Of a DNA stretch of 21,105 bases, positions 3,556 through 21,105 are shown piece after piece (position 1 is the stretch's first letter; each line of letters starts with the position of its first letter). The notes below the pieces were generated by a model. It saw only the letters and a list, made by a program, of their open reading frames with translations. It had not been told where the DNA came from and searched no databases. This DNA comes from Verrucomicrobia bacterium 12-59-8 (GTDB lineage Bacteria > Verrucomicrobiota > Verrucomicrobiae > Verrucomicrobiales > Verrucomicrobiaceae). Where the stretch lies: the NCBI GenBank assembly GCA_002279765.1, contig NCCR01000104.1:1-21105 (forward strand), in the 5' to 3' direction. Position numbers and translations under genes: made by a program.

Positions 3556-3643
3556 GCGTCTTGGAGTGCTCCAGTCCTCTGGAGCTTTGCGCAGGCCAAG
3601 GGACACTCGAAAGCGCCGGAGGACCGGCGCACTCCAAAACGCA
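3556..3643. repeat. Nested inverted repeat with compensatory changes
   Basis: Two arms of about 31 bases (3558-3588 and 3610-3640) are inverted copies of each other around a 21-base spacer. Each arm is itself a palindrome: CTCCAG-TCCT-CTGGAG on the left and GCGCCGG-AGGA-CCGGCGC on the right. Most differences between the arms keep the inner stems paired, so the small hairpins are conserved rather than the letters. The unit lies in the 223-bp gap between two convergent genes. No transposase is present; it looks like a REP/BIME-type intergenic repeat. Confidence 0.75.
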
Positions 3644-7670: not shown

Positions 7671-7725
7671 ATCCGGCAGGCTGTTGCCAGCCGTGCGAGT
7701 CCCGCACCCATCGTCTGCCGGTTTT

Positions 7726-7769
7726 GATGCCAGATGCCACGCCTAAGCGCGGCATCACGGCATCTTTTT
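7726..7769 (+). terminator. Doubled-word palindrome with T-run downstream of the antiporter gene
   Basis: GATGCC-A-GATGCC and GGCATC-AC-GGCATC can pair as a roughly 13-bp stem with a loop around GCCTAAG, followed directly by five T residues (7765-7769). It lies 55 bp after the antiporter stop. Shape and T-run fit an intrinsic terminator, though it is also the left end of element A. Confidence 0.45.
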
Positions 7770-8021
7770 CGGCCCACCACCCCAATTTCGTGCATGCCAT
7801 GGCATGGAGTGGTAGTTGATGGCAACCGATGGAAATCCTGATACCACAAAGGGCGCATGTGCGGCATCTTTTTTGGCATGTGTTTGATGCCGTGGATGCA
7901 GGTAAAGAGGCGTGGGAATGCCGGGAAGGAAAGAGCCTTTCGTGCGGCATGCAGCACAAGCTATCAGGCTTGCGGGGCGGCATCCTTAATGAGGCCTACA
8001 TAGTCATCGCATAATATATAT

Positions 8022-8110
8022 ATGAATGGCCCTCAATGAAGGCACATCATCCTGCCATTGAGCGCCGCAGACCTGAGCGTCCCGGCGCGCGGACATCCAG
8101 TCCGCAGCAC
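8022..8110 (+). ncRNA. Possible degenerate HEARO-like RNA
   Basis: ATGAATGGC (8022-8030) is followed by a small hairpin GCC-(CTCAATGAA)-GGC, then a stem GCGCCG (8062-8067) with CGGCGC (8083-8088) and a perfect hairpin GCGGAC-ATCCA-GTCCGC (8089-8105). The first hairpin resembles that of the better candidate at 19187: the loop is alike, and the stem is GCC/GGC instead of GCG/CGC. The long-range helix of the other copy is not found here, so this may be a remnant. Confidence 0.22.
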
Positions 8111-8161
8111 TCCGCATGCACCCATGACTCCGCACGTCTATACAGCTTCTCTGCCTCCAGC

Positions 8162-8212
8162 GAAAAAGATGCCGTGATGCCGTGCTTAGGCTGGGCATCT
8201 GGCATCTTTTTT
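8162..8212. repeat. Right terminal palindrome of element A
   Basis: This is the inverted copy of 7726-7770: doubled GATGCC, core GTGCTTAGGCTG, doubled GGCATC. On the plus strand it is followed by six T residues (8207-8212). On the minus strand the opposite arm is followed by five T residues, so it could terminate transcription from both sides, including the methyltransferase gene that ends at 8388. Confidence 0.7.
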
Positions 8213-8387
8213 CATTTCACCCCGCCAATCGTGGCAAACCAAGGCAGAAGATAGAATCGTAGTGCATCAAAGCGCAGTTTTCGGGCGGTCAGCCAGGAAA
8301 AGACGGCATCTTTTGCGCCTGGATTTGATGCCATGAATTCCAGCGGCAGCCGATCCGGATTCCATCAACTCTTTTCACTCCTCTGCC

Positions 8388-9335
8388 CTACCGCCGAATG
8401 TGCAGAAACAAATTCACGCCCTCAGGCTCCCACATCACCTCGATCGAATCCGCTGCCGCTCCAGCCTCCAGCGCGAGCTCGCGCAGGTGGTCCCGCGTGC
8501 GGTGCTGCAGCACCCAGTCTCCCAGCAGTTCCATGTAGTCGCGGCTGGGATTGTGGTCGGAGAAATTACCCACCACGACTTCGCCGCCGCGCTTCGTCAC
8601 AGCCATGAGGGCCTTGAGCAGAAAGACAAAAGTGCGGTCCGTGAGGTAGTCGAAGAGCCCGGCGGACCACACGAGTTCGTAGCCCTTGGCGGGAATGAAG
8701 CGCAGCACGTTGCGGTGGTAAAACTCCACCCGCCTGGCAAACGGCGCGCACAGCTGCTTGGCACGCTCGATGGCGTGAATCTCGGCGTCCACGCAGTCGA
8801 AAAACACATCGCGCTCCGGATTGTCCAGCACCCACTCGCGCACGTCCCGTGCCGGGCCGCTGGCCACATTCAGCACATTCAGCGGGGCCCTGGTGCGCCC
8901 CACGGAGTGCGAATTCAGGAGCTGATGGAAGTAGGCCTTGCGATTGCGCACCGCATTGGGTGCCGCCTGCGAGTGGAAGTAGAGATCCCAGCGCCGCAGA
9001 TGCGGCTCCTGGGCGATCTGCAGGGTGTAAATGGCCTCGATGATTTCGAAGTCTCCGCTATAGCCGTATTTTTTTCCCAGCGCCCGCGCCTGCATGGTGC
9101 CTTCCAGATACCGGTTCGTAACGTCCTGCGCGTAGGCCAGCACATCATCGCGGGCGATCACCTTGGCCCGCACCGCATCCCCGAGCAGCCGCAGCGTGCG
9201 GTTCATCTGCGCATAGTCATTCGGCATCGGCCCGCCTTGAGCGATGAGTTCACGCAGCAGATCATCACATTCAATCAATGGCGCAAAGTCGTTCTTGCGA
9301 ACTGAATAGCGTTCTTGGAGGACAAGGGGCGGCAT
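8388..9335 (-). CDS. Class I SAM-dependent methyltransferase, PhcB-like
   Basis: The 315-residue protein has a helical N-terminal region (1-145) and a Rossmann-type methyltransferase domain. Motif I is VLNVASGPARDV (154-165), followed by an acidic strand end FFDCVDAE (178-185). Then come LVWSAGLFDYL (221-231) and GGEVVVGNFSDHNPSRDYME (250-269), and the protein ends in EPEGVNLFLHI. The GLFDYL, GNFS..NPS and DW.L..RT blocks recall the methyltransferases that make 3-hydroxy fatty-acid methyl ester signals (PhcB type in Ralstonia) and their relatives. The substrate here is unknown, and no sensor kinase partner lies in the window. The ATG at 9335 follows a GGAGG-like run at a distance. The gene stands alone, divergent from the sigma factor gene. 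Confidence 0.82.
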   Translation of the reverse strand: MPPLVLQERYSVRKNDFAPLIECDDLLRELIAQGGPMPNDYAQMNRTLRLLGDAVRAKVIARDDVLAYAQDVTNRYLEGTMQARALGKKYGYSGDFEIIEAIYTLQIAQEPHLRRWDLYFHSQAAPNAVRNRKAYFHQLLNSHSVGRTRAPLNVLNVASGPARDVREWVLDNPERDVFFDCVDAEIHAIERAKQLCAPFARRVEFYHRNVLRFIPAKGYELVWSAGLFDYLTDRTFVFLLKALMAVTKRGGEVVVGNFSDHNPSRDYMELLGDWVLQHRTRDHLRELALEAGAAADSIEVMWEPEGVNLFLHIRR

Positions 9336-9509
9336 GCGCAGGTGGGGGCAGATTGAGGCCTCGGTAGGCTTAACTGGTTGATAATAAGCGTTTATTTACA
9401 TTTCGGGAAGCGAAAAATTACACTCACCTGCCGCAACCCCTGTTTTGCGCCAATTCAGCATTCGTCCGTAAAAACCGTCCATTGAGCGGAGATAGAGACA
9501 TGTCTGCCC

Positions 9510-10043
9510 ATGTCCCCAACCGAAAACGAACGCCACCACCGCTTCCTGCGCAGCTTCACCGCGCATGAGCCCGCCATCCGCGCGCATGTGCGGCGGCTGG
9601 TCCCCGCACGAGCGGACGCAGATGACGTGATGCAGGAAATCAGCGTGGTGTTGTGGGAAAAATTCGACTCCCTGCGCGAGGGCGCAGATTTCAAACCCTG
9701 GGCCTTCGGCGTGGCTCGTTACGAAGTCCTGGCATGGCTGCGGGACCGTGGCCGCGACCGCCTGGTGCTGGATGAAGAAGTCATCACGAAGATCGCGGAG
9801 GAAACCACCGCTATGGAGCCGCTGCTGGAGCGCCAGCGCGAAGCTCTGGAACTCTGCATGCAGAAGGTGCCCGCTGACCAGCGCGGCCTCCTGGTGCAGG
9901 CCTATCAGCCGGACTCAAGCATCCAAACCGTGGCGCAGGGCAGCGGGCGCACGGTGCCCGGCTTTTACCAATGGCTGCACCGCATGCGCAAGCTGCTGCT
10001 CGACTGCATCCGCCGCGCCTTGACTCAGGAGGTGGCGTCATGA
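9510..10043 (+). CDS. ECF RNA polymerase sigma factor, Rhodopirellula/Verrucomicrobium type
   Basis: The 177-residue protein begins with [24 protein letters not shown] and has the region 2 core [17 protein letters not shown] (36-52) and the promoter-melting helix [24 protein letters not shown] (61-84). Region 4 spans about 105-170: [21 protein letters not shown], then a helix-turn-helix ending [20 protein letters not shown]. This is the size and layout of the sigma factors typical of Planctomycetes and Verrucomicrobia. It would direct RNA polymerase to a small regulon, probably including its own operon. The ATG at 9510 is chosen because the earlier ATG at 9500 is in another frame. Its stop overlaps the anti-sigma gene's start by 4 bp (ATGA at 10040-10043), so the two are coupled. 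Confidence 0.92.
10027..10032 (+). promoter_or_regulatory. Perfect Shine-Dalgarno sequence for the FecR-LamG gene
   Basis: AGGAGG lies 7 bases before the ATG at 10040, inside the last codons of the sigma factor gene. It fixes the start of the downstream gene at 10040 rather than at the upstream in-frame start and supports translational coupling. Confidence 0.8.
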
Positions 10044-11494
10044 AAGTCGACCTCGCAGATCTCATCGCCGCCTATCTCGACGGCTCCATCTCCGCACCCC
10101 AGATGCAGCAGCTCAACACCCTGCTGCTCGCCGATGCTGAAGCACGGCGTGGGTTTGTCGAACTGCTCAACGTGGACTCCGCACTCGCAGCGCTGGCCGC
10201 AGACTGGACATCCGCGCAGGAGACAGTGAAGCCAAGCCGCTGGCTCACGCATTCACCACGCTGGATCGCCGCCGCAGCCTGCATCTCCCTGCTGCTCGGT
10301 GCCTGGTGGTGGCAGGACGCCCACCGTGCCTATGCCACCGTGGGAAAAGCCGCTGGCGTGGTGGAGCTGGTTGATGGCACAAGACTGCGCGGCGAATCCT
10401 ACGCCATCAGCGCAGGCAGCATATCCCTCATCACCGCACGCGGGGCACGCATCGTCATCGAAGCCCCGGCGGAGTTTCGCTTTGAATCCGCGCAGCGTCT
10501 GCACATGAAGCGCGGCCGACTTGCCGCTGATGTGCCTCCTGCGGCGAAGGGCTTCACCGTCATCACACCTTCCGGAGATGCGGTGGATCTCGGCACGCGA
10601 TTCGGCGTGGATGTGCCCTCCAGCGGCGCGGCAGAGGTTCACGTGTTTCAGGGCGAGGTCATCACCAAGGCCTCCGGCGCGCAGGCCAATCAAAGTCTGC
10701 GCGGTGGAGATGCGGTATCATTTGCTCAAGGTGCCAGCACCGCTCGCGAGCTGCGCTCCTCCGCCTTCATCCAGCCTGATGAACTCCCCGGCCTCACTGC
10801 CGGCCTCGCCGCCGGTCAGCGTGCGCGCTCAGCAGCCGCACTCGCCGCTTTGAAGCAGGACCCCGCGCTGATCGCACTGCTTGATTTCGAGTCAGCCGAT
10901 GAACTGCTCGGCGTATATCGCCGTGTGCAGGGCCGCTGGCCCGGCTCGCACGCGCCGGAGTTTGTGAATGTGGGCGATCACTTGAAGCTCGATGTCGGCG
11001 GTGGCCGCGACTGGCCGCAGCTCACGCTCGCTGCCTGGGTGCGCATCGACCGCCTCGGCGCGCCCTACCAGTCCCTGCTACATACGGATGGCTGGAGCCA
11101 CAACAACCCCGGTCAGGTGCATTGGATCATCAATCGCGACACCACCATGCGACTCGCGCTCATTGGCAACACGCTCGCTCCCGGTGCCATCGAACGCCAG
11201 GGCCACCCTGACTCGCGTACGCCCGTGCTGCCAGAGCAGGGCCGCTGGGTGCATCTGGCCACCGTCTATGACTCCACACGCGGCATTGTGCGTTTTTATC
11301 TCAACGGTCAGTTTGACAGTGAAACCCACCTGCTGATCGCTCATCCCGCACGCCTCGGCCCCGCGCAGATTGGCAACTGGAACCAGCAGGACCGCAAGCT
11401 CAGCGGCCGTGTCGATGAACTCCTCCTGCTCGGTCGCGCCATGTCGGACGCTGAAATCCACGCCCTGCACGCCGCAGGCAATCCCTACCGCTGA
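10040..11494 (+). CDS. FecR-like anti-sigma protein with C-terminal LamG-type domain
   Basis: From the ATG at 10040 the product has 484 residues. The first 60 are cytoplasmic and helical ([15 protein letters not shown]...) and likely hold the sigma factor. One membrane helix spans about 74-91 ([17 protein letters not shown]). A periplasmic FecR domain follows at about 98-230, with the marker [19 protein letters not shown] (174-192) and VHVFQGEV. Residues 300-480 form a concanavalin/LamG-like jelly roll: [48 protein letters not shown]. Such domains often bind carbohydrate or other ligands, so this protein may sense an extracellular polymer and release the sigma factor. This function is inferred from the operon order sigma, FecR, PSD1, which recurs in this phylum. 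Confidence 0.9.
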
Positions 11495-11503
11495 TCACAC
11501 CGC

Positions 11504-14239
11504 ATGAAGTTGGTTGCTCTCATCTTTTTCACTTCTTCCGCACTCGCCGCGCCTATTGATTTCGTGCGCGATGTGCGCCCCATCCTCCAGCAGCACTGCT
11601 ACAACTGCCACGGGGAGAAAAAGCAAAAGTCCGGCCTCCGCCTCGACATCAAAGCCGCAGCCTTCCAAGGCGGCGACAAACACGCACCCGACATCATCTC
11701 CGGCAAAGCGAAGGACAGCCCGCTGATCCACTTCCTCACCACCGATGACGAAGACGAACTCATGCCTCCCAAAGGCAAACTCTCCGCCGCCAACATCGCC
11801 ACCCTCACCACCTGGATCAACGAAGGTGCCCCATGGCCCGATGGCGTCGATCTTGCGAAACTCGAAGACCGCCTCGACCACTGGTCCTTCAAACCTCTGG
11901 AACGGAGTGGGGGCATCTTGCCCCCATCTTCTAGCGCCATCGACTCCTTCATCGACGCCAAACTCGCCGAAAAAAACCTCCACAGCTCCCCTCCCGTCGA
12001 TCCCGTCTCCTGGCTGCGCCGCGTCACCTTCGACCTCACCGGCCTGCCGCCCACGCCTGCTGAAGTCGCCGCCTTTGTGCAGCACCAGGATCATGCCACC
12101 GTCATCGAACGTCTTCTGAAAAGCGAGCGCTACGGCGAACGCTGGGCGCAGCACTGGCTCGATGTCGTGCGCTACGCCGACACGCACGGCTTTGAAGTGA
12201 ACACCGAGCGCCCCAACGCCTGGCCCTATCGCGACTACGTCATCCGCGCCCTCAACAAAGACACGCCCTATGATCGCTTCATCAAAGAGCAGATCGTGGG
12301 AGATGCCATGGGCCAAGACGCCGCCACCGGTTTCCTCGTCACCGCTTCCGTGCTGCTGCCCGGCCAGATCGGCAAAGACGACGCCTCCAAACGCCTCGCA
12401 CGGCAGGATTCGATTGATGAGATGGTCATGAACATCGGCCAGACCTTTCTCGGTCTCAGCATCGGCTGCGCACGCTGCCATGATCACAAATTCGATCCCA
12501 TCACCGCCAAAGATTACTACGCCATGCAGGCCTTCGTCGCCGGAGTCGAGTATGCTGACCGCGACTTGCACACACCCGAAGCGGAGGCCTCACGTGCGGA
12601 GGCGGCGCGGCTTAAACAACGCCTCGCGCAGATCGACAAAGAACTCTCCCAGTTCGTGCCGATGGTGAAATCCGGCACTGAGCGCCCCATGATCAACGCC
12701 CGCGAAAACGCCGACCGCTTTGCGCCGGTGAAGACCCAGCGCGTGCGCTTCACCATCAAGGCCACGACCAACCTGGAGCCCTGCATTGATGAGCTCGAAA
12801 TCTTCAATACGAGCGGTGAAAACGTCGCTCTCGCCTCCTCTGGCACCAAGCGCAAATCCTCTGGTGACATCGGCGTGGCCGAGCGCCACGAGCTACGCTT
12901 CCTCAACGACGGCCGTTACGGCAACTCGCGCAGTTGGCTCTCCAACAAGCTGGGCCAGGGCTGGGTGGAGCTGGAGTTCCCGCAGGAGCAGCTCGTCGAG
13001 CGCGTCGTCTGGAGCCGAGACCGCGATGGCAAATTCACCGACCGTCTCGCCACCGATTATCAAATCGAAATCAGCGATGCCGCAGGTCACTGGCACACCG
13101 TGGCCGATGCCAGCGACCGGCAGAAGTTTGATCCGAAAAACAAGAAGCTCATCAAGCCCACACTCGGTGGCCTCAGCGCAGAGGAAGCCAAACGCGCCAA
13201 GCCATTGATCCAGGAAAAAGCCGCCACCGAAGCAAAGATCGCCCAAGCCATCAACGCTCAGAAAGCCTTTGCCGGAACCTTCCGCACCCCGGACGACATC
13301 CACCTCCTCAGTCGCGGCGATCCCGAGCAGCCGAAGGAACCCGTCACCCCCGCCGTGCTCAGCGCCCTCGGTGATTTAAAGCTCCCCAAGGAATCCGCCG
13401 AGCAGGAACGCCGCCGAGTTCTCGCTGACTGGATCGCCAACGCACAAAATCCGCTCACCGCACGAGTCATGGTGAACCGCATCTGGCAGGGCCACTTCGG
13501 CACCGGCCTCGTCCAGACCCCGAGCGATTTCGGCCGCATGGGCATGAAGCCCACCCATACCGGACTCCTCGACTGGCTCGCCATCGAGTTCATCCGCAGC
13601 GGCTGGAGCGTGAAGCACATGCATCGTCTCATTCTCTTATCGCAAACCTATGGTCAGTCTTCGCAGAGCATCAAAGAAAACGAGACCCTCGACTCCGACG
13701 TCCGTTACCTCTGGCGCTACCCATCCCGCCGCCTCGAAGCCGAATCCATCCGCGACTCCATACTCGCCGTCAGTGGTCGCTTGAATTTGAAGATGTATGG
13801 CCGCGGCTACAATCTCTTCGATCAACGCGGCGGCCTCAGCGGCTTCGATCCCATCGAGACCTTCAACGCCGAGAACCAGCGCCGCATGATCTACGCCCAC
13901 AAAGTACGCCGCGAGCCCGAAACCGTCTTCGGTGCCTTCGACTGCCCTGACGCCGGCCAGAGCACCGCGCGCCGCATCGAAAGCACCACCCCCATCCAGG
14001 CCCTCAATCTCTTCAACAGTCGCTTCACCCTCGAACAAAGCGAAGCCTTCGCCACCCGCGTACAGCAGGAAGCTGGCACCGATCCCGCCAAACAAATCAC
14101 CCTCGCCTACCAGCTAGCCCTCAGCCGTACACCCACCGCCGACGAACTCGCAGACACCACGCCACTCGTTCTCAAACATGGCCTGTCTGCCGTTTGCCGT
14201 GCGCTGTTCAACAGCAACGAGTTCCTCTTTGTGCCATGA
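11504..14239 (+). CDS. PSD1 and planctomycete cytochrome C domain protein
   Basis: The 911-residue protein starts with a short signal peptide (1-15, cut after SSALA). A PSCyt1 cytochrome-like domain follows, with heme motif C32-Y-N-C35-H36, then PSCyt2/DUF1549 at about 146-350 (FIDAKLAEKNL, FDLTGLPPTP, YGERWAQHWLDVVRYADTHGF) containing a second C322-A-R-C325-H326-DHKFDPI. Residues 405-545 hold an inserted F5/8 type C (discoidin-like) domain, and PSD1/DUF1553 runs from about 640 to the end (NPLTARVMVNRIWQGHFG). Such proteins are periplasmic and are linked to polysaccharide use. It lies 9 bp after the FecR-LamG stop, in the same operon. A palindrome insertion adds SGGILPPSS at about 135-143. 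The DUF1501 gene that usually follows is absent. Confidence 0.93.
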   Translation: MKLVALIFFTSSALAAPIDFVRDVRPILQQHCYNCHGEKKQKSGLRLDIKAAAFQGGDKHAPDIISGKAKDSPLIHFLTTDDEDELMPPKGKLSAANIATLTTWINEGAPWPDGVDLAKLEDRLDHWSFKPLERSGGILPPSSSAIDSFIDAKLAEKNLHSSPPVDPVSWLRRVTFDLTGLPPTPAEVAAFVQHQDHATVIERLLKSERYGERWAQHWLDVVRYADTHGFEVNTERPNAWPYRDYVIRALNKDTPYDRFIKEQIVGDAMGQDAATGFLVTASVLLPGQIGKDDASKRLARQDSIDEMVMNIGQTFLGLSIGCARCHDHKFDPITAKDYYAMQAFVAGVEYADRDLHTPEAEASRAEAARLKQRLAQIDKELSQFVPMVKSGTERPMINARENADRFAPVKTQRVRFTIKATTNLEPCIDELEIFNTSGENVALASSGTKRKSSGDIGVAERHELRFLNDGRYGNSRSWLSNKLGQGWVELEFPQEQLVERVVWSRDRDGKFTDRLATDYQIEISDAAGHWHTVADASDRQKFDPKNKKLIKPTLGGLSAEEAKRAKPLIQEKAATEAKIAQAINAQKAFAGTFRTPDDIHLLSRGDPEQPKEPVTPAVLSALGDLKLPKESAEQERRRVLADWIANAQNPLTARVMVNRIWQGHFGTGLVQTPSDFGRMGMKPTHTGLLDWLAIEFIRSGWSVKHMHRLILLSQTYGQSSQSIKENETLDSDVRYLWRYPSRRLEAESIRDSILAVSGRLNLKMYGRGYNLFDQRGGLSGFDPIETFNAENQRRMIYAHKVRREPETVFGAFDCPDAGQSTARRIESTTPIQALNLFNSRFTLEQSEAFATRVQQEAGTDPAKQITLAYQLALSRTPTADELADTTPLVLKHGLSAVCRALFNSNEFLFVP
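11908..11926. repeat. Palindrome inserted in frame within the PSD1 gene
   Basis: TGGGGGCA-TCT-TGCCCCCA is a perfect 8-bp stem with a 3-base loop, encoding the start of a Ser-Gly-Gly-Ile-Leu-Pro-Pro stretch between the cytochrome-like domain and DUF1549. The peptide reads like a linker and not like the flanking domains. I recall SGGILPP as a recurring insert in proteins of this phylum. Confidence 0.7.
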
Positions 14240-16142
14240 GCTTGTTCATGGCGAAGGCACACGATGGATGATGCGGTGGGTGCCGGTGGTTCTCGCTTGC
14301 CAAGCTTCGCTGCACCCCCGGCTCATTTCCGTACTCCCTCTGGGAGCAGGCAGACGGGCGGGCTGTCGCCACACTCATCCTAATAAACCGCTTTGCGATG
14401 AAACAGAAAGCTTGGGGGGCGGTGGGCTGAATGGAATGCGCGGCATCCGTGGCGAGTGCGGGCAGATTCGTTTCGGAGGCGGAGATCAAGGCGCAGGTGC
14501 CGCTGCGGTCGGTGCCGGTTTCCCAGCTACCGATGCGATTCAGCGCGAGCAGGCCGTGCGCGGGATCGTCGGCGACTTCGATGAAGGCGCTGCCATTCCA
14601 GGCGTGCCACAGCACGAGGGCGTCGGTGTGCAGCATCTCGCCAGTGTGCAGGGTGCGCATGTCGGTCAGGGCTTCGCTGTTTTCCGCGCACCAGTAGAGC
14701 GCGTTGCCGAGGATGAGGGGAAAGGAGGGCAGCAGGGCGAGCTGCTCCGACTGCGAGGGTGAGAACGCGGCGACCACGAGGCGCTGGCCGTCGTACTCTC
14801 CGGCGGCCAGCACGGTTTCATTCCCGGCGATCCACAGCGGTTCAATCGAGGCCGGCAGAGTCAGCAGGGCGGTCTGGGTGACGGCAATGCGGCTGCTGCT
14901 GGCGCGGAAGAGCACGGGATGGTCTGGCTGCACGGAGCGCACGCCGTCATACGGCACGCTTTTGATGGCGCGTGTTTTCACCGGGCCGGAGCTGCTTTGC
15001 GGAGTGAGGGCGATGACCGGGCGGTCTGTGGGCCATTCCTTGGGAAGCCAGTGCTCAAACACATAAACATCCGGCTGTTCTTTGGGTGGCCAGGCCGTTG
15101 GGTCTCCTTTGCGCATTTCGATGCGGCCGTTTTCGATCAGCGCGGAGAGCGCGAGCTCGGTGAAGGGATCGGGCTTCTCTGAAAACCACGCGACGGTGAG
15201 AGGCTTTGTTTTCGGAAGCGGTGCCGCGAGGCCATCGTCCCAGCCGAAGCAATCGCTTGCGGTCTTCAGGCGGATTTCCAACTGCTGCCCGCGCACGCCT
15301 TCGAGCGGCAGGATCAGCGCGCTGGATTCACCGGGGGCGAGATCCAGCTCGCGCAACTGCGCGATGCGGCCGGAGATGGAGACCTCGAGCGTGGTCGTGG
15401 TCTTGCTCTTGTTGTCGGCGGCGGCGCTGACTTTGACGAAGGCCTCATAGCGGTCACGTGCCAGCGGGCTGTGGCGGATCTGAAAGCCAGTGAGGCCCAC
15501 ATTGAGCGGCTCCTTGAGGGCCACGGGAATCCAATCGACGGCGGTGGTGGCAGGAGGTTGCGAATCGCTTGCCAGCCAGATGCGGGAGTGTGTTTCGAGA
15601 TCGGCGAGACGCTGGGCGACGGTCAAAGCGGCCTCCGGCTTGCCTTCGATGGGTACGGGTGTGAGTTCATCGAGCAGGCGCAGGCACTCGCGGTGGTTGC
15701 GGCTGCGGGAAAGCAGCACGCGGGAGCGCGCATCAAAGGCGATGAGAGATACCACTGTCTGGTCTGGCAGCGCGCGGATGCGCGCTTTGACGCCTTGCTT
15801 GGCGGCGTCGAGCCGGGTCTGGCCCTGCAGGTCCTGCGCTGCCATGGAGGCAGAGCAGTCCACCACCATGACCACGGCGCTGATGGCATCGGCGGAGAGA
15901 TTGCCGCTGGGCCTGGCGAGCGCCAGGATGGCGAAGAACAGCACCAGCAGCGTGAGTAGGAGCGAGAGCCATTTCTTGATGCGGCGCAGCCACGCGGACT
16001 CCTGATGCTCACGCGCGAGCGATTTGAAAAACAGCAGCGTCGAGACTGGCACCCGCTTCGCCTGCCTGCGGAAGAGCCACAGCACCAGCGGGATCAGCGC
16101 GAGCCAGAGGAGGTGCAGGTAGCTGGGGGTGAGGAAGCGCAT
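14208..16142 (-). CDS. BatA-type VWA domain membrane protein, C-terminus apparently replaced
   Basis: The 644-residue reading frame starts with the aerotolerance BatA N-terminus: a first membrane helix (FLTPSYLHLLWLALIPLVLWLFRR, 3-26), a basic VPVSTLLFFKSL segment and a second helix at 57-76. The VWA domain follows, with MIDAS motif D95-C-S97-A-S99. Strand-rich periplasmic domains follow to about residue 565. Family members usually end in a third membrane helix. Here the last 70 or so residues instead read like intergenic repeat sequence (NEPGVQRSLASENH, HPPHHPS), and the stop lies inside the end of the convergent PSD1 gene, overlapping by 32 bp. This suggests the native 3' end was lost by deletion or repeat insertion. 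The ATG at 16142 begins the family's N-terminus directly. BatA proteins bind metal through VWA and often act with MoxR ATPases, not seen here. Confidence 0.82.
   Translation of the reverse strand: MRFLTPSYLHLLWLALIPLVLWLFRRQAKRVPVSTLLFFKSLAREHQESAWLRRIKKWLSLLLTLLVLFFAILALARPSGNLSADAISAVVMVVDCSASMAAQDLQGQTRLDAAKQGVKARIRALPDQTVVSLIAFDARSRVLLSRSRNHRECLRLLDELTPVPIEGKPEAALTVAQRLADLETHSRIWLASDSQPPATTAVDWIPVALKEPLNVGLTGFQIRHSPLARDRYEAFVKVSAAADNKSKTTTTLEVSISGRIAQLRELDLAPGESSALILPLEGVRGQQLEIRLKTASDCFGWDDGLAAPLPKTKPLTVAWFSEKPDPFTELALSALIENGRIEMRKGDPTAWPPKEQPDVYVFEHWLPKEWPTDRPVIALTPQSSSGPVKTRAIKSVPYDGVRSVQPDHPVLFRASSSRIAVTQTALLTLPASIEPLWIAGNETVLAAGEYDGQRLVVAAFSPSQSEQLALLPSFPLILGNALYWCAENSEALTDMRTLHTGEMLHTDALVLWHAWNGSAFIEVADDPAHGLLALNRIGSWETGTDRSGTCALISASETNLPALATDAAHSIQPTAPQAFCFIAKRFIRMSVATARPSACSQREYGNEPGVQRSLASENHRHPPHHPSCAFAMNKLMAQRGTRCC
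14240..14400. repeat. Repeat-like sequence between convergent genes
   Basis: Between the PSD1 stop and the recognisable part of the BatA gene lies about 160 bp whose minus-strand reading (GNEPGVQRSLASEN) I recall from scattered spurious ORFs in related genomes. It interrupts the expected C-terminus of the VWA protein and the place where a DUF1501 gene would be expected. Confidence 0.4.
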
Positions 16143-16158
16143 TGGAGGGGATCAGAAG

Positions 16159-16380
16159 AATGACGAATGAGTAAATCCGAATGACTAAATAATGTCGAAA
16201 TCTGAATGACGAATGTGGCGTGGTGGGATGGCTGGGTTCGTCCTTATTCTCGTTCTCCTACTCGAACTCGAACTCGTCCTCGGTCATGGCGCGTCGAACG
16301 TCGAATGAAGGAGCAAGCGAGCCGAGAATGGCTGCGGTGGTGGTTGGAAATTCGTCATTCGGATTTACTCATTCGTCATT
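16159..16380. repeat. 222-bp inverted repeat with perfect 27-base arms
   Basis: The arms at 16159-16185 and 16354-16380 are exact inverted copies built from a GAATGAC/GAATGAG word; a further GAATGACGAATG copy follows the left arm at about 16203-16214. The 168-bp middle includes a short CGAACT/CGAACTCG tandem run near 16260-16280. The right arm supplies the last bases and the TGA stop of aroB (16376-16378). No coding gene is supported inside. It resembles intergenic repeats of this phylum and may also block read-through between aroB and the VWA gene. Confidence 0.8.
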
Positions 16381-17476
16381 TGCGAAGCTCGTCGAGCGCC
16401 TGCTTCAAATGGCCTTCGATCACGTCCTTGCTCACGTAGGCTTCGCCGATCTTGCGCAGGAGGACGAAGCGGATCTTGCCGTTCTCGAATTTCTTGTCGG
16501 TGCGGGCGATGCGCATGATCTCCTCGGTGTCGAGATCGTCCGGCAGGCGCACGGGGAGGTCGCAGAGCTTGAGCAGCGTGAGGATGCGCTCGTAGTCGTC
16601 GCTGGTGAGGTCGGAGATTTGGGTGGAGAGCCAGGCGGCGGCGCGCAGGCCGAGGCTGATGGCCTCGCCATGCAGCATTCTGCCATAGCCTGCAGCGGCT
16701 TCGATGGCATGACCGAGGGTGTGGCCGAAATTAAGCAGCGCACGCGTGCCGATGGTTTCGTACTCATCGGCCTCCACGATGACGGCCTTGATGGCGATGT
16801 TCCGGCGGATGAGGGCGACGATGTCTCCTTTGCCTGCGGCGATGTCTTCGATGGCCTTGAACATGGAGGCATCGCGAATGCAGGCGTGCTTGATGATCTC
16901 CGCGAAGCCTTCGTTCCATTCGCGGGTGGCGAGGGTGCTGAGGGTGTCGAGATCGGCGATGACGTGGACGGGCTGGTGAAAGCAGCCGACCATGTTTTTC
17001 GCATTGGGCAGGTTCACGCCGGTCTTGCCGCCGACGGAGCTGTCCACCTGGGAGAGCACCGTGGTGGGCACCTGCACGTAGGGGATACCGCGCTGGTACA
17101 CGGAGGCGCAGAAGCCCGCGAGATCGCCAATGACACCGCCGCCGAGGGCGACCACGAAGCTCTTGCGGTCCAGGCCAAAGCGCACCATCTCGCTGAGCAC
17201 GGACTCGCTCCAGGAGAGGGATTTGGAGGACTCCCCGGCGGGCACGGTGACGAGGTTGGGCTTTTTGCCGGCGTCACGCAGGCTTTGCAGCACGGTTTCG
17301 GCGTAAAGGGGGCCGACGTTGGAATCCGTGACCACGACGCAGCTCGTGCGGTCTGGCAGCTTCTTGTTCACCTCTTCACCCAGCGTTTTGAGTTGATCAC
17401 GACCGACCTGAACGAGGTAGCTGCGCGGACCTAGATTGACGAAGACGGGGCGGACGGGCTGGACGGGCGGAGGCAT
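16376..17476 (-). CDS. aroB: 3-dehydroquinate synthase
   Basis: The enzyme converts DAHP to 3-dehydroquinate in the shikimate pathway, using NAD+ and a divalent metal in the cytoplasm. From the ATG at 17476 the product has 366 residues, the usual length. It shows VVVTDSNVGPLY (47-58), the NAD-binding loop ALGGGVIGDLAGFCASVYQRG (110-130), the substrate loop PTTVLSQVDSSVGGKTGVN (137-155), the metal ligand glutamate in EGFAEIIKHA (189-198), and the histidines in LNFGHTLGHAIE (248-259) and MLHGEA (267-272). The open frame extends to 17569, but 17476 fits the family N-terminus. It overlaps the upstream miaA gene by 46 bp, so the two are probably co-transcribed and coupled. The final codons merge into an inverted repeat arm that provides the stop. 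Confidence 0.95.
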   Translation of the reverse strand: MPPPVQPVRPVFVNLGPRSYLVQVGRDQLKTLGEEVNKKLPDRTSCVVVTDSNVGPLYAETVLQSLRDAGKKPNLVTVPAGESSKSLSWSESVLSEMVRFGLDRKSFVVALGGGVIGDLAGFCASVYQRGIPYVQVPTTVLSQVDSSVGGKTGVNLPNAKNMVGCFHQPVHVIADLDTLSTLATREWNEGFAEIIKHACIRDASMFKAIEDIAAGKGDIVALIRRNIAIKAVIVEADEYETIGTRALLNFGHTLGHAIEAAAGYGRMLHGEAISLGLRAAAWLSTQISDLTSDDYERILTLLKLCDLPVRLPDDLDTEEIMRIARTDKKFENGKIRFVLLRKIGEAYVSKDVIEGHLKQALDELRK

Positions 17477-18369
17477 GGAAAAAGTTCGAGAAGATGGGGG
17501 AGCGCGTACTGTGCCGCCGGAACGGAATCGAGGCAAATCGTTTGGAAGCAGCGCTCGCGGCGAAACCACGTGATTTGTCGCTTGGCATAGTGCCGGGTGG
17601 CCTGCTGAATGGCGGCGATGGTGTCCGCCAGAGGCACCTGCCCGGCCAGGTGCGCACGCACCTCGCGCACGCCGATGGCCTTTTCCGCCGTGGGGGAGAG
17701 CGGGCCCTGCGCGCTGACCTCTGCAACGAGCCCGGCGGCAAACATGTCGAGCGTGCGTTGATTGATGCGGCGGTAGAGCGCCTCGCGGTCCCAGGTGAGG
17801 ATGGCGCCATTCACCTGCGGTTCGACTTGCTCAAACGAGCGCCGCAGGCCGGACTGTGGGCGGCCGCTGAGCAGGCAGATCTCCAGCGCACGCTCCACGT
17901 AGCGCGGATTGCGCAGGTTCACGGTGGTGGCGGCTTCGGGATCGCGCTGCAGCAGCCACACGATTTTCTCGCCGGGGCTGAGCTGCTGGAATCGCGCCCG
18001 CAGCTGGGGCGAGGCGGCGGGCAGGGGAGAGAGGCCGTGGGTGAGCGCCTTGATGTACAGCCCGGAGCCGCCCACCACGATGGGCACGCGACCACGCGCG
18101 GCGATTTCGTGGATGACCGGCAGCGCCAGCGCGTGGTAGCGCTGCGCATCGCAGGCCTCGGTGAGGGGTATTACCCCATAGAGGTGGTGCGGCACGCGTG
18201 CCATGTCCGCCGGCGCTGGCTTGGCCGTGAGGAGGTCCATGCCCGCGTAGAGCTGGAAGGCGTCCGCATTGACGATCTCCCCACCGACGTGCTCCGCCAG
18301 GGCGATGGCCAGAGCGGACTTGCCCGAGGCTGTGGGCCCGGCGATGAAGAAGGTGCTGTCAGGAAGCAT
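17431..18369 (-). CDS. miaA: tRNA dimethylallyltransferase
   Basis: MiaA adds a dimethylallyl group to A37 of tRNAs that read codons starting with U, in the cytoplasm. From the ATG at 18369 the product has 312 residues, as expected. It has the P-loop GPTASGKS (11-18), then VNADAFQLYAGMDLLTAKP (33-51, with the catalytic-site aspartate D36; most relatives read DSRQVYRGMDIGTAKP), then VPIVVGGSGLYIKAL (95-109) and TRHYAKRQITWFRR near the C-terminus. The frame is open upstream to 18501; the longer start would add 44 residues that look like a separate secreted-peptide remnant, so 18369 is preferred. The ORF ends in a serine/proline-rich tail that overlaps the start of aroB by 46 bp. Confidence 0.95.
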   Translation of the reverse strand: MLPDSTFFIAGPTASGKSALAIALAEHVGGEIVNADAFQLYAGMDLLTAKPAPADMARVPHHLYGVIPLTEACDAQRYHALALPVIHEIAARGRVPIVVGGSGLYIKALTHGLSPLPAASPQLRARFQQLSPGEKIVWLLQRDPEAATTVNLRNPRYVERALEICLLSGRPQSGLRRSFEQVEPQVNGAILTWDREALYRRINQRTLDMFAAGLVAEVSAQGPLSPTAEKAIGVREVRAHLAGQVPLADTIAAIQQATRHYAKRQITWFRRERCFQTICLDSVPAAQYALPHLLELFPCLRPSSPSAPSSSI

Positions 18370-19055
18370 TCGGGGGCCGCAAAGGACTGCGCATGAGAAG
18401 GCGTGCTCGATCTTGCGACCGATTGTGGAAATGTCTTCGTCGGTCTTTTCAAAGGCGTGGTCCACTGCCACGGCGGGAAGGGAGGGAGAAAACAGCGACA
18501 ATGAGGAAAGAGGCGATGATTTTCATGGTGGTGCAGGGTAGTGCAGGGGGAGGAAAGGCTCAAGAGGGGAGTGAAGGAGCGGTTGTTGCAATCCTCCTCC
18601 TCGATGCTTCTACGGCCCAGCGGCCAAACGTGGGCACATTGGAAAAGAGGGAGTGCGATGGGGCCTCAGCCCGCGCTGGGACGAAGGGATTCTACGGACG
18701 CTCACATCCCTACCTGCCCACTCGCTGTGCAGGTAAGGATGGTAGGGAACCGCTGTGCGGGTCCGTGATTTCGGGTCTATCTCCCGCGCAGGCGATGAAA
18801 AAGGTGCGCCGTCCGTGGGGCTTCCACTATTTCCAGAGTTTGAACGGGGGCAGTGTACGCGCATTCCAGTGCCGAGTGGGGGCCAGGAATGCTCCGAAGC
18901 ATGCCCGAAATCATGTCACTCATGCGCCCCCTCTGGTTGCCGCCTTTTGGGGTGCTCATGGCCTTGAGAGGCTTCCTCGGCGTGCATCATCATGCCACCG
19001 CGTTCCACCGGACGCAGCCTCCTGCGTAGCGTTCTGGCGCGGTCATCAGCGCCAC
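18370..19055. other. Non-coding stretch upstream of miaA, with a broken signal-peptide ORF
   Basis: No intact gene is supported. On the minus strand an ATG at 18526 encodes a signal-peptide-like MKIIASFLIVAVFS that, after a frame change, would continue as LPAVAVDHAFEKTDED in the miaA frame; this may be a decayed small secreted protein. Further upstream the sequence is repeat-like. CCCTACC (18708-18714) pairs with GGTAGGG (18741-18747) around an inner CCTGC/GCAGG, giving a hairpin. Nothing else is recognised up to 19055. Confidence 0.45.
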
Positions 19056-19095
19056 GGTTGCCGGTTGCCCACCCTAAGCGTGGAAACTGGCAACC
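19056..19095. repeat. Left terminal palindrome of element B
   Basis: Doubled GGTTGCC (19056-19069) faces GGAAAC-T-GGCAACC (19082-19095), a stem with two mismatches, around a CCTAAGC core. No T-run follows, unlike the units of element A. Confidence 0.7.
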
Positions 19096-19186
19096 AGCGG
19101 CGGTGGGGCGCAGACTGCCGCAGTGGTGTTGTTATGCACTGGGGGCGTGGAGAGATGGGCCTGCAGGTGTGTGAATAGGTATGTAC

Positions 19187-19340
19187 ATGAATGGCGCTCA
19201 GTTAAGCGCGTGATCGCAGGCGAAACCCCAGGGAGCATACGCCAAGCCTCGGCACCACCTGGGCTGTATTCCGCAGCTCCGTTGGAGCTGAAGAGGGCGG
19301 ATCACGGAAGGCCGCCAATGGTCGAGCCACCGCCTTAACC
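19187..19340 (+). ncRNA. Candidate structured RNA, HEARO/omega-RNA-like
   Basis: Starting at ATGA-ATGGC, the region can form GCGCT-CAGTTA-AGCGC (19194-19209), a long-range helix CGTGATC (19209-19215) with GATCACG (19300-19306), GGCG (19219-19222) with CGCC (19240-19243), and a perfect hairpin CAGCTCC-GTT-GGAGCTG (19274-19290). CCCAGG (19227-19232) inside the GGCG/CGCC loop can pair with CCTGGG (19258-19263), which would make a pseudoknot. HEARO RNAs (the omega RNAs of IscB) are pseudoknotted, are described as inserted next to ATGA or GTGA, and often occur without an ORF. No IscB gene is in the window. The family name is inferred; the structure is seen. Confidence 0.4.
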
Positions 19341-19606
19341 GAGTGCCAATAGTATGTATATATACCTTGGATATAGCCTGTTCAGGGCCTAACCGAGCGT
19401 GGGTGCCAGCGCAGCGCACGGTGTTGTGTCACCGCTGCGCGGTTCTATGTGGGCGGCTTTTGCGCTGGGAAACCATGGCAACCGAAAGGGTGGGGCAATG
19501 GTTGCCGTCATGTGCCTGGATGACTTGCCATAAAATGCTTCCGGGTGCTATGCTATGCCATCAATTGCTATTATATGCGCTGATGGTGCGGGGGATCGGG
19601 AGGCTT

Positions 19607-19645
19607 GGTTGCCGGTTGCCGTGCTTAGGGTGGGCAACCGGCAAC
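19607..19645. repeat. Right terminal palindrome of element B
   Basis: GGTTGCC (19607-19613) and GGTTGCC (19614-19620), core GTGCTTAGGGTG, then GGCAACC (19633-19639) and GGCAAC (19640-19645) form a near-perfect 13-bp stem. The core is almost identical to that of the right unit of element A at 8182-8193. Confidence 0.75.
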
Positions 19646-19714: not shown

Positions 19715-20657
19715 TTACAGCCGCCGCAGGCCGTCCTCCGTCATCGCGCAGGGGATGGTTTCATCAATCTCGTTGATGCGGGCGAGGGTTTCAGCGCTGA
19801 GCACGAGATCGGCGGCGGCGACGCTTTCGTTCAACTGCGCCACCGTGGTGGCTCCGACGATGGTGGAGGCGACGAAGTCGTGCTGCTTGCTCCAGGCGAG
19901 GGCGAGCGCGGTGACGCTGACGCCGAGATCTGCGGCGATGACTTGCAGGCGCGCGGTGGTCTCAAGGCTGCGCTCATTGACGAAGCGCGCGGCCATCTTC
20001 TTCTGACGCGGGCCGCCGTTTTGGATGTAGTCGGTGAAGCGTGCGCCTTTGGGCAGGGCTCCGCCATTGTACTTGCCGCAGAGCACGCCACCACCGAGGG
20101 GCGAGTAGGGCAGGAGGCTCACGCCTTCCTTGCGGCAGACCTGGACCAGCTCGCTCTCGCAGCGGCGATTGATTAGGGAAAAATTGTTCTGCACCGTGGC
20201 CATGCGGGCGAGGCCGTGCTTCTCGGCCTCCCAGAGATTTTTCATGACACCCCAGCAGGTTTCATTGCTGGAGCCCCAGGCGCGGATCTTGCCCTGGTCG
20301 ATGAGATCGGTCAGTGCGCCGAGGGTTTCCTCCTGCTGCATGCCGTGATCCGGCCAGTGGGTCTGGTAGAGGTCGATGTAATCTGTCTGCAAGCGCCGCG
20401 TCGATGTAATCTGTCTGCAAGCGCCGCAGGCTGTCCTCACACGCCTGGAAAATCTGACGGCGGTCCAGCGCCGTGAAGCCACCGCGAATCGGCGGACGGA
20501 ACCAGCCGTGGCCGGGGCCGGTGACCTTGCTGGCGACGATGATCTCGCCCCGCGTGCGGCCTTTGAGCCATTTGCCGACGATCTGCTCGGTCACGCCGAA
20601 GAGTTCGGCGCTCGGCGGCACGGGATACATCTCGGCAGTGTCGAAGAAGTCGATCCC
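19715..20657 (-). pseudogene. Aldo/keto reductase (Tas-like), frameshifted and 5'-truncated
   Basis: Two reading frames together give most of an NADPH-dependent aldo/keto reductase close in pattern to the Tas group. The N-terminal piece (about 20400-20657) starts in GIDFFDTAEMYPVPP, with the catalytic Asp and Tyr, then [15 protein letters not shown] with the catalytic Lys, and [11 protein letters not shown]. The C-terminal piece (19715-20399) repeats [10 protein letters not shown], then YQTHWPDH with the catalytic His, [29 protein letters not shown] and [20 protein letters not shown] 28-bp tandem duplication (20372-20427) breaks the frame between them, and the first 40 or so residues, including the strand before the active site, are missing. 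A functional enzyme is unlikely. Loss seems recent because all other codons remain intact. Confidence 0.88.
20372..20427. repeat. 28-bp perfect tandem duplication
   Basis: Bases 20372-20399 and 20400-20427 are identical. The unit starts GTCGATGTAATC and ends AAGCGCCGC. Since 28 is not a multiple of three, it shifts the aldo/keto reductase frame; removing one copy would restore [18 protein letters not shown]. Confidence 0.95.
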
Positions 20658-20825
20658 AAGCAGCCCTACTTTGAGAATGATTTTGAGGGAGCGAAGTTCA
20701 TCTGGACTGATGATCTCGCACTGGACAATACGATCATCTTTCGCACCAAGATTGTGAAACCCGAGTGGAAGCAGCGCTGGAACACGAAACCTGATCTTGA
20801 TGTCACTGGAGCACCTTTGAAATGA
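20652..20825 (+). pseudogene. 3' remnant of an unrecognised plus-strand gene
   Basis: A protein-like segment of about 57 residues (PYFENDFEGAKFIWTDD, then ALDNTIIFRTKIVKPEW, ending GAPLK) runs to a TGA at 20823-20825 that overlaps the sulfatase start by ATGA. Its upstream part is lost: before about 20652 the frame is only the shadow of the reductase on the other strand. The coupling to the sulfatase shows that it was once the upstream gene of that operon. The family is not recognised. Confidence 0.5.
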
Positions 20826-21105
20826 AAACACTTCTCATATTGAGCCTTGCTCTTCTGCTGGCCGGGAATGCCTGGGCCAAGGCACCGAATATCCTCTTCA
20901 TCCTCGCGGATGACCAATCATGGAGCGGCACCTCGGTGCGCATGATGTCCAATGAGCCCGACAGTGCGGGACGCGAATTTCGCACGCCGAATCTCGAAAA
21001 GCTGGCTGCGCAGGGCATGACGTTTTCACAGGCGTATGCGGCCCACTGCAAATGCGAGTGTTCGCGTGCCTCCATCCAGATGGGGCGCACCACGAGCACG
21101 CTGAA
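20822..21105 (+). CDS. Secreted sulfatase, N-terminal part
   Basis: The product begins with a signal peptide (MKTLLILSLALLLAGNAWA, 1-19) and continues with the sulfatase core strand PNILFILADDQSW, whose D30-D31 bind calcium. FRTPNLEKLAAQGMTFSQAYA (53-73) follows, then the active-site region C78-E-C80-S-R82-A-S-I-Q-M-G-R. In this family the first Cys of C-x-P-S-R is turned into formylglycine; here the third position is Cys instead of Pro. The enzyme would cleave sulfate esters from polysaccharides in the periplasm or outside. The ATG at 20822 has GGAG about 10 bases upstream and overlaps the preceding remnant's stop. The gene continues past the window end, so the rest of the active site cannot be checked. 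Confidence 0.93.
   Translation, partial: MKTLLILSLALLLAGNAWAKAPNILFILADDQSWSGTSVRMMSNEPDSAGREFRTPNLEKLAAQGMTFSQAYAAHCKCECSRASIQMGRTTSTL

Follow-up and report, generated by a model that had tools for sequence, protein, structure and literature searches.

Word-matched palindrome pairs, phased half-words and exchangeable cargo in Prosthecobacter-type Verrucomicrobiaceae

Two palindrome pairs in the window

A stretch of 21,105 nucleotides (nt) from Verrucomicrobia bacterium 12-59-8 (contig NCCR01000104.1, positions 1 to 21,105; assembly GCA_002279765.1), hereafter the window, carries two pairs of inverted palindromes, e1 and e2. The e1 pair is flanked by convergent genes for a Na+/H+ antiporter and a methyltransferase, and e2 lies at the miaA locus. 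Each palindrome (P) follows the plan word-word-core-word'-word', as read directly from the sequence. The e1 repeat (7726-7771/8161-8206) is 46 nt long and 93% complementary, with a spacer of 389 nt, and the e2 repeat (19057-19096/19606-19645) is 40 nt long and 90% complementary, with a spacer of 509 nt; of the 74 inverted-repeat pairs found in the window, no other is as long. An initial annotation of this DNA had described two pairs of this plan, and it was borne out, with the start of e2 corrected to 19057.

All eight words of e1 are GATGCC/GGCATC. In e2, six of the eight words are exactly GGTTGCC, the left unit containing GGAAACT and the right unit terminating in GGCAACT, so that the claim that all halves use the word of their own locus is exact for e1 and approximate for e2. 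The right-unit cores are exactly as described (GTGCTTAGGCTG in e1 and GTGCTTAGGGTG in e2); the near-identity claimed for the core holds for these units but not across the family, where only TAGG stays nearly fixed. The window palindromes are not due to chance, because their RNA-fold z scores are -6.7 and -7.4 (100 and 20 shuffles) and because a degenerate core pattern, searched in one genome per species (84,980 species), matched six stretches, all of them in Verrucomicrobia metagenome-assembled genomes. Rfam gave no match at the gathering threshold across the window. By eye, the right P of e1 has a T run at either flank and the left P at a single flank, and e2 is without T runs. The features of the two loci are as follows.

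7684-8387, no strand: e1 insert, between the antiporter and methyltransferase genes (comparison with relatives)
7726-7763, minus strand: e1 left palindrome, P(-), doubled GATGCC on each side of a CCTAAGC core (direct reading, inverted-repeat scan)
7800-7834, plus strand: e1 comb of half-words, TGGCA, TGGTA, TGGCA and TGGAA at 7800, 7810, 7820 and 7830, in exact 10-bp steps (direct reading, comb counts)
7863-7891, plus strand: e1 left satellite (S), GGCATC-N17-GATGCC, 96 nt past P (direct reading, S search)
8168-8206, plus strand: e1 right palindrome, P(+), GATGCC words and core GTGCTTAGGCTG (direct reading, inverted-repeat scan)
8305-8332, plus strand: e1 right S, GGCATC-N16-GATGCC, 96 nt past P, beyond the P pair and within the insert (direct reading, S search)
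18821-18845, minus strand: motif I (GTTCAAACTCTGGAAATAGTGGAAG), which recurs next to P at the miaA locus in relatives (direct reading, comparison)
18912-18941, minus strand: S of the e2 right end (RE), degenerate (by eye; the S-search rule did not score it)
18993-19007, minus strand: comb remnant of the e2 RE, two half-words 10 bp apart in minus-strand reading (comb counts)
19057-19094, minus strand: e2 palindrome P(-), the RE of a minus-strand element, GGTTGCC words and one GGAAACT (direct reading)
19477-19506, minus strand: S of the e2 left end (LE), GGCAACC-N16-GGTTGCC, 99 nt from P (S search)
19608-19645, plus strand: e2 palindrome P(+), the LE of the minus-strand element, GGTTGCC words and core GTGCTTAGGGTG (direct reading)

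The extra internal word copies that had been claimed are real and ordered, and they form S with the word of the locus. However, two of the four S in the window (8305-8332 and 18912-18941) fall outside the P pairs, and the comb half-words of e1 follow a general TGGHA, not the full word of the locus. Another interspersed repeat of ~190 nt with its own hairpin (18639-18825) abuts e2; it is 77-80% identical in L043, a stretch of another genome (10714-11657), where it is tandem at ~207-bp spacing.

Distribution, order and anatomy of the palindrome family

The further copies predicted by the initial annotation were found in relatives, with the same plan and other words. A covariance model of P built from 24 palindromes matched 15 of 48 genus genomes at an E value of 0.1 and 12 of 68 Verrucomicrobiaceae family genomes at E 1e-4. 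Eleven of the latter belong to one genus, and the sole P-bearing genome outside it, G056 (G numbers denote genomes), has a single P. In a class-wide sample, P was found in 2 of 384 genomes, G003 and G007 (E 1e-5, strict filters). Copy number is low, with 1 to 18 model matches per P-bearing genome at E 1e-4 and up to 22 at E 0.1, often on both strands of one P. The e2 region, the only one used to search plasmid and phage sequences, had no match there, and pattern scans of viral contigs returned 6, 1 and 0 stretches, none with a palindrome. The P elements are a real, lineage-restricted, low-copy family of Prosthecobacter-type Verrucomicrobiaceae.

In total, 90 P were annotated by regular expression on 40 stretches, a count that misses some, such as a single P in G028 found by the model. 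They use seven words: GATGCC, GGTTGCC, GAGTTGCC, AAGTTGCC, AAGTTTCC, ATGTTTCC and GGTTTCC. Among the 68 cores of 12 nt, the TAGG run is kept in 62 to 66 per position and the remaining positions vary; GGTTGCC was also seen with a 19-nt core. Pairing is Watson-Crick in 505 of 544 paired cells from 34 distinct P (shuffle maximum, 482), and the palindromicity suits DNA rather than RNA because the mismatches (8 G-T and 11 A-C) favour neither strand.

Adjacent P within 5 kb (n = 50), with strand assigned by core motif, were ordered (-,+) in 30 cases, (-,-) in 10, (+,+) in 10 and (+,-) in none; orthologous loci enter this count and those of word matching and comb from several genomes, and the counts are not independent. 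With the strand given by the model (92 places), the numbers were 27, 12, 9 and 2, both (+,-) cases having nearly tied strand scores, and where the strand margin was at least 8 bits they were 25, 10, 7 and 0 of 42. The recount thus moves the plus-then-minus order from 0 to 0-2 of 50, and neither word matching nor the comb rests on it.

Pairs were defined by blind bracketing, which gave 34 pairs with 22 of the 90 P unpaired by core-motif strand and 32 pairs with 26 unpaired by model strand. Word likeness was 0.943 within pairs (n = 34) versus 0.779 between pairs of the same genome (n = 86) with the core-motif strand, and 0.932 (n = 32) versus 0.766 (n = 74) with the model strand; none of 2,000 permutations was as good in either case. 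The gap is small in G014 (0.81/0.79), G007 (0.92/0.87) and G003 (0.92/0.87), all by model strand. The claimed matching of words within an element therefore lies above the between-pair level, but some elements mix words: G004:C10 pairs AAGTTGCC with AAGTTTCC, and the miaA array of G003 combines GAGTTGCC and GGTTGCC. In G007:C14 (L162, 6087-6974), two word-matched pairs (AAGTTTCC and ATGTTTCC) are interleaved, not nested. The word is locus-bound and inherited, and because the e1 and miaA loci are orthologous across several species, much of the within-pair matching reflects descent. The initial annotation had held that matching needs active upkeep; this reading is supported in part, and descent accounts for much of what it was meant to explain.

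Next to P, pairs of TGGHA half-words at distances of 10, 20, 30 and 40 nt number 49, 22, 14 and 8, and no other distance between 5 and 44 nt has more than 4. The sum for 10, 20 and 30 nt is 85 over 180 sides of the 90 P; 300 dinucleotide shuffles gave 0.63 on average and never more than 5. Single-genome sets, which address non-independence for the comb only, lay above their own 300 shuffles in all eight tested, and the eight P sides of the window itself gave a count of 8 versus a shuffle maximum of 1. In addition, GGMA pairs at 10 nt number 59 versus 3.1 expected, and comb chains of at least three half-words occur 8 times near P and not at all elsewhere in 471 kb. Comb phase, which rests on the core-motif strand calls, peaks at 3 mod 10 on CCTAAGC-core sides and at 6, with a second peak at 3, on GCTTAGG-core sides. 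The satellite S (word', ~16 nt, word) stands beside many GATGCC- and GTTGCC-type P, mostly at 94-108 or 109-136 nt, and most AAGTTTCC-type P have none under the S-search rule. Both ends are directly repeated P-spacer-S modules at e1, G004:C3, G048:C6 and the miaA locus of G048. At G007:C9, P plus comb is directly repeated (75% over 173 nt). The e2 element obeys the same plan on the minus strand with its right S degenerate, and the miaA locus of relatives has additional inverted copies and motif I. Comb phase and S distance distinguish the left end of an element from the right.

Occupancy and cargo of the loci in relatives

The initial annotation had suggested looking for empty sites, and e1 (7684-8387) is cleanly absent from G003, where the flank alignments abut, and is replaced by ~31 nt in G004 (there from 7662). 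GATGCC pairs occupy the orthologous e1 site in G001, G002 and G032, and in G048 with a different left neighbour. Of 21 miaA loci examined in other genomes, several on short contigs, eight have P (G028, G001, G005, G003, G014, G002, G004 and G048), none was found in twelve (G044, G015, G041, G023, G035, G040, G016, G025, G018, G017, G019 and G039), and the G037 contig gave no P. Two flank searches for further empty sites gave only short matches in other genomes.

At the G004:C3 site, G004 has a P pair ~630 nt apart, and the site is near-empty in G005, G014, G041, G035, G025, G045 and G040. It holds other sequence, with no P by eye, in G003, G001, G002, G032, G015 and G048. In G028, a single P joins the left flank of one P to the right part of the other, a junction compatible either with excision within P or with a deletion across direct repeats of 16 nt. 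The G004:C3 gap is a gene-exchange hotspot. Within the same intergenic gap, stretches L191, L192, L193, L198 and L199 (G003, G001, G002, G015 and G048) carry differing P-free sequence, with small HNH-like and toxin-antitoxin-like genes by eye.

P-pair interiors in relatives often contain accessory genes. At a slot next to a conserved AAA_25-type ATPase gene, genes with defence-model matches are present in 6 of 7 genomes and differ between genomes. Those inside P pairs are an HNH nuclease (G003), PDC-S36 (G004), LRR-Roc-COR-TIR plus HNH (G014) and pentapeptide-TIR (G007), and those beside a single P are PDC-M31A/B plus HNH (G002, where 4.4 kb separate P and the ATPase) and HNH (G048, where the contig ends); the slot in G037 has no gene with a defence-model match. 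At the miaA slot, a Fic gene lies inside P pairs in G001 and G048 (PDC-S04/SoFic models) and, by likeness, in G028 and G014; G004 keeps clear remnants of Fic, G002 and G003 keep weak ones, and the window has none. Exchangeable accessory genes, several of anti-phage type, fill one orthologous slot in relatives. The window also has an accessory islet without P (544-2006), in which a TIR plus cold-shock-domain protein adjoins an HNH_2 protein, both being weak to moderate defence-model matches.

The AAA_25-type gene adjoins P in G003, G004, G014, G037, G048 and G007, and the domain was Pfam-confirmed for G003, G004, G037 and G007. One AAA_25 protein has a sub-threshold IS630 transposase match (17.6 bits; cut-off, 100), a relative has a Tnp_DNA_bind domain, and a source calls another one transposase-like. 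Viral contigs yielded no AAA_25 match. As judged from these likenesses, the AAA_25 protein may be a candidate for the enzyme, as a lead only.

Other repeats in the window are a hairpin repeat at 3556-3642, 75 nt of which are 93% identical to L043 3741-3815, and a short repeat at 16159-16380 (30-bp inverted, 97%) with AATGACGAATGA words, also present at L043 10002-10034. A perfect 28-bp tandem duplication (20372-20427) lies within an aldo/keto reductase gene. The duplicated length is not divisible by 3, and at the duplication the coding sequence breaks up into open reading frames (ORFs) 19715-20482 and 20262-20831, so that this gene looks broken in the window sequence.

Proposed function and comparison with known systems

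The preferred reading, to which we give a probability of about 0.5, is that these elements are non-autonomous cassettes whose ends assemble an oligomeric recombinase acting in trans. The e1 and e2 elements would then be small members, probably decayed, of a low-copy, non-autonomous insert family. Each end would be a nucleoprotein assembly site consisting of P (a doubled word inverted about a mostly 12-nt TAGG core), then the comb, then S, which would be part of the end in the GATGCC and GTTGCC types. Comb half-words placed every 10 bp would present one helix face to protein bound side by side. An oligomeric recombinase or transposase, supplied in trans, would bind word and comb, recombination would occur at or near P, and the word would be the recognition sequence. 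The order grammar, the two different ends, the helical phasing and the shared word together call for a word-reading protein that binds side by side along the comb, and if one protein reads both ends, both must keep the same word. The single P at the G028 site would be the expected residue of excision, or of deletion between the direct repeats. From this anatomy we infer both the enzyme and the mobility.

Several observations weigh against this reading. No recombinase or transposase family exceeded its cut-off among the scanned cargo and neighbour proteins, which came from part of the P loci (for the neighbours at 12 loci, 30 of 73 listed ORFs), so that the linked enzyme suggested by the initial annotation was not found in this set. 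No target-site duplication, for which it had also proposed to look, could be made out by eye when e1 and G004:C3 were compared with empty sites. Nothing points to a second copy of recent origin: when P regions from separate loci of the same genome are compared, the closest match is 83% over 165 nt (matches of at least 120 nt). The e1 and e2 interiors contain no convincing gene, and no Fic remnant was detected in e2 when the miaA slots of relatives were compared. The single P in G028 is close (~100 nt) to the end of its contig. Genes can turn over without P, because other sequence fills the G004:C3 gap in its absence. Part of the cargo has non-defence functions or matches nothing; among the other cargo scanned, a DMP19 protein and proteins of 234 and 182 aa had no defence match, and the cargo counts record presence only and imply no enrichment over background intergenic inserts. 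Finally, the core-motif and model strand calls disagree for 11 of 87 P, and the calls are uncertain because the cores are near-symmetric.

A doubtful though serious alternative is that P are fixed DNA boundary sites (an insulator, a bidirectional terminator or a nucleoid-protein site) beside gene-exchange hotspots, the interiors changing by homologous recombination, the palindromes being kept by hairpin-templated correction and the pairs matching by descent. Orthologous loci do retain their own word, hotspots also accept P-free sequence, and e1 has both T runs and convergent neighbour genes. However, T runs are missing from e2 and from most GGTTGCC and GAGTTGCC types, few or no adjacent P stand in (+,-) order, comb phase is not the same on the two side types, and relatives that lack e1 lack the whole unit. 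An origin of replication of the iteron type, or a centromere, left from an ancestral integrated replicon is unlikely. Iteron systems have direct repeats with an inverted operator-like site, which comb and P resemble in their helical phasing at 10 bp, and the protein bound would be of the Rep or Par kind, possibly together with the AAA_25 ATPase whose gene adjoins P in six genomes. Yet AAA_25 borders just one of several P loci per genome and has many relatives (409 of 7,996 scored candidates at E 0.001), two ends per element are odd for an origin, and no Par partner was seen.

Mobilisation by a RAYT (Y1) transposase, with P as repetitive extragenic palindromes (REPs), paired REPs (REPINs) or terminal-inverted-repeat-type repeats, is likewise improbable, even though the palindromes form inverted doublets, Y1 transposases occur in 17 of 17 genomes searched, and REPs are reported in Verrucomicrobia (Opitutus terrae; PMC3733652). 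No P was found in 30 RAYT loci returned by the search, not every RAYT being covered (97 kb, 1.5-kb flanks), the P-free genome G016 is also RAYT-rich (27), copy number is low, and the foot tetranucleotides GTAG and CGTC occur in 0 and 2 of 180 P flanks. To our knowledge, cargo and a 10-bp comb are not REPIN features. This reading was dropped. Integron attC-like cassette sites are mostly refuted and highly improbable. In G003, an array in which one P(-) and three P(+) accompany small ORFs recalls them, and integrases exceed the curated cut-off in 5 of 20 genus genomes (G015, G018, G037, G028 and G003), but G015 and G018 are P-free, 8 of 11 P-bearing genomes have no integrase over the cut-off, and the integrase loci fetched have no P (one place at E 0.12 only). 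A script for the attC R boxes RYYYAAC/GTTRRRY found none in the window and also none at true integrase loci. The attC reading was dropped as well.

Beyond the cassette reading itself, a tentative idea is that an undescribed site-specific recombination system moves anti-phage cassettes between fixed Prosthecobacter intergenic slots, and that a matching address word at two distinct ends (P, comb and S) lets several insulated systems, even nested or interleaved, share a genome. If this is true, a new kind of cassette boundary, marked by a legible address word and strict 10-bp spacing, would delimit defence-type genes throughout a whole bacterial group. Since pattern alone suffices to locate the slots, new defence genes could be catalogued and the enzyme sought through them, and the matched words would allow a clean test of how two distant ends keep their recognition sequences alike. 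No description of such elements in Prosthecobacter or Verrucomicrobia was found in the literature searched, as judged by titles and abstract openings.

REPINs are RAYT-associated REP doublets (PMC3116915, PMC3733652). The P family resembles them in having intergenic palindromes in inverted pairs and several sequence classes per genome, and differs in its low copy number, lack of a GTAG tag and of a linked RAYT among those found, enclosed genes, 10-bp comb and S. With integron cassettes it shares exchangeable accessory genes between structured palindromes and one four-P array, but it has no IntI link, its conserved core is central and not at the edges, its left and right sites are unlike, and P occurs in both orientations. 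Like miniature inverted-repeat transposable elements (MITEs) and cargo-bearing non-autonomous transposons, it has inverted terminal structures, an empty site and no transposase of its own; in contrast, no target duplication was seen by eye at the two sites compared, no parent transposase was found among the proteins scanned, and P-comb modules are directly repeated at both ends of several elements. Iteron arrays of plasmid origins and ParR-type centromeres also place helically phased direct repeats beside an inverted site that shares their half-word, whereas the P family has two such sites per insert, is chromosomal and has no cognate gene identified. Intrinsic-terminator features (hairpin plus T run) are, by eye, present at e1 and absent at e2. 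In the tests made, none of the REP/REPIN, integron, MITE, iteron and terminator readings showed all of the features that define it.

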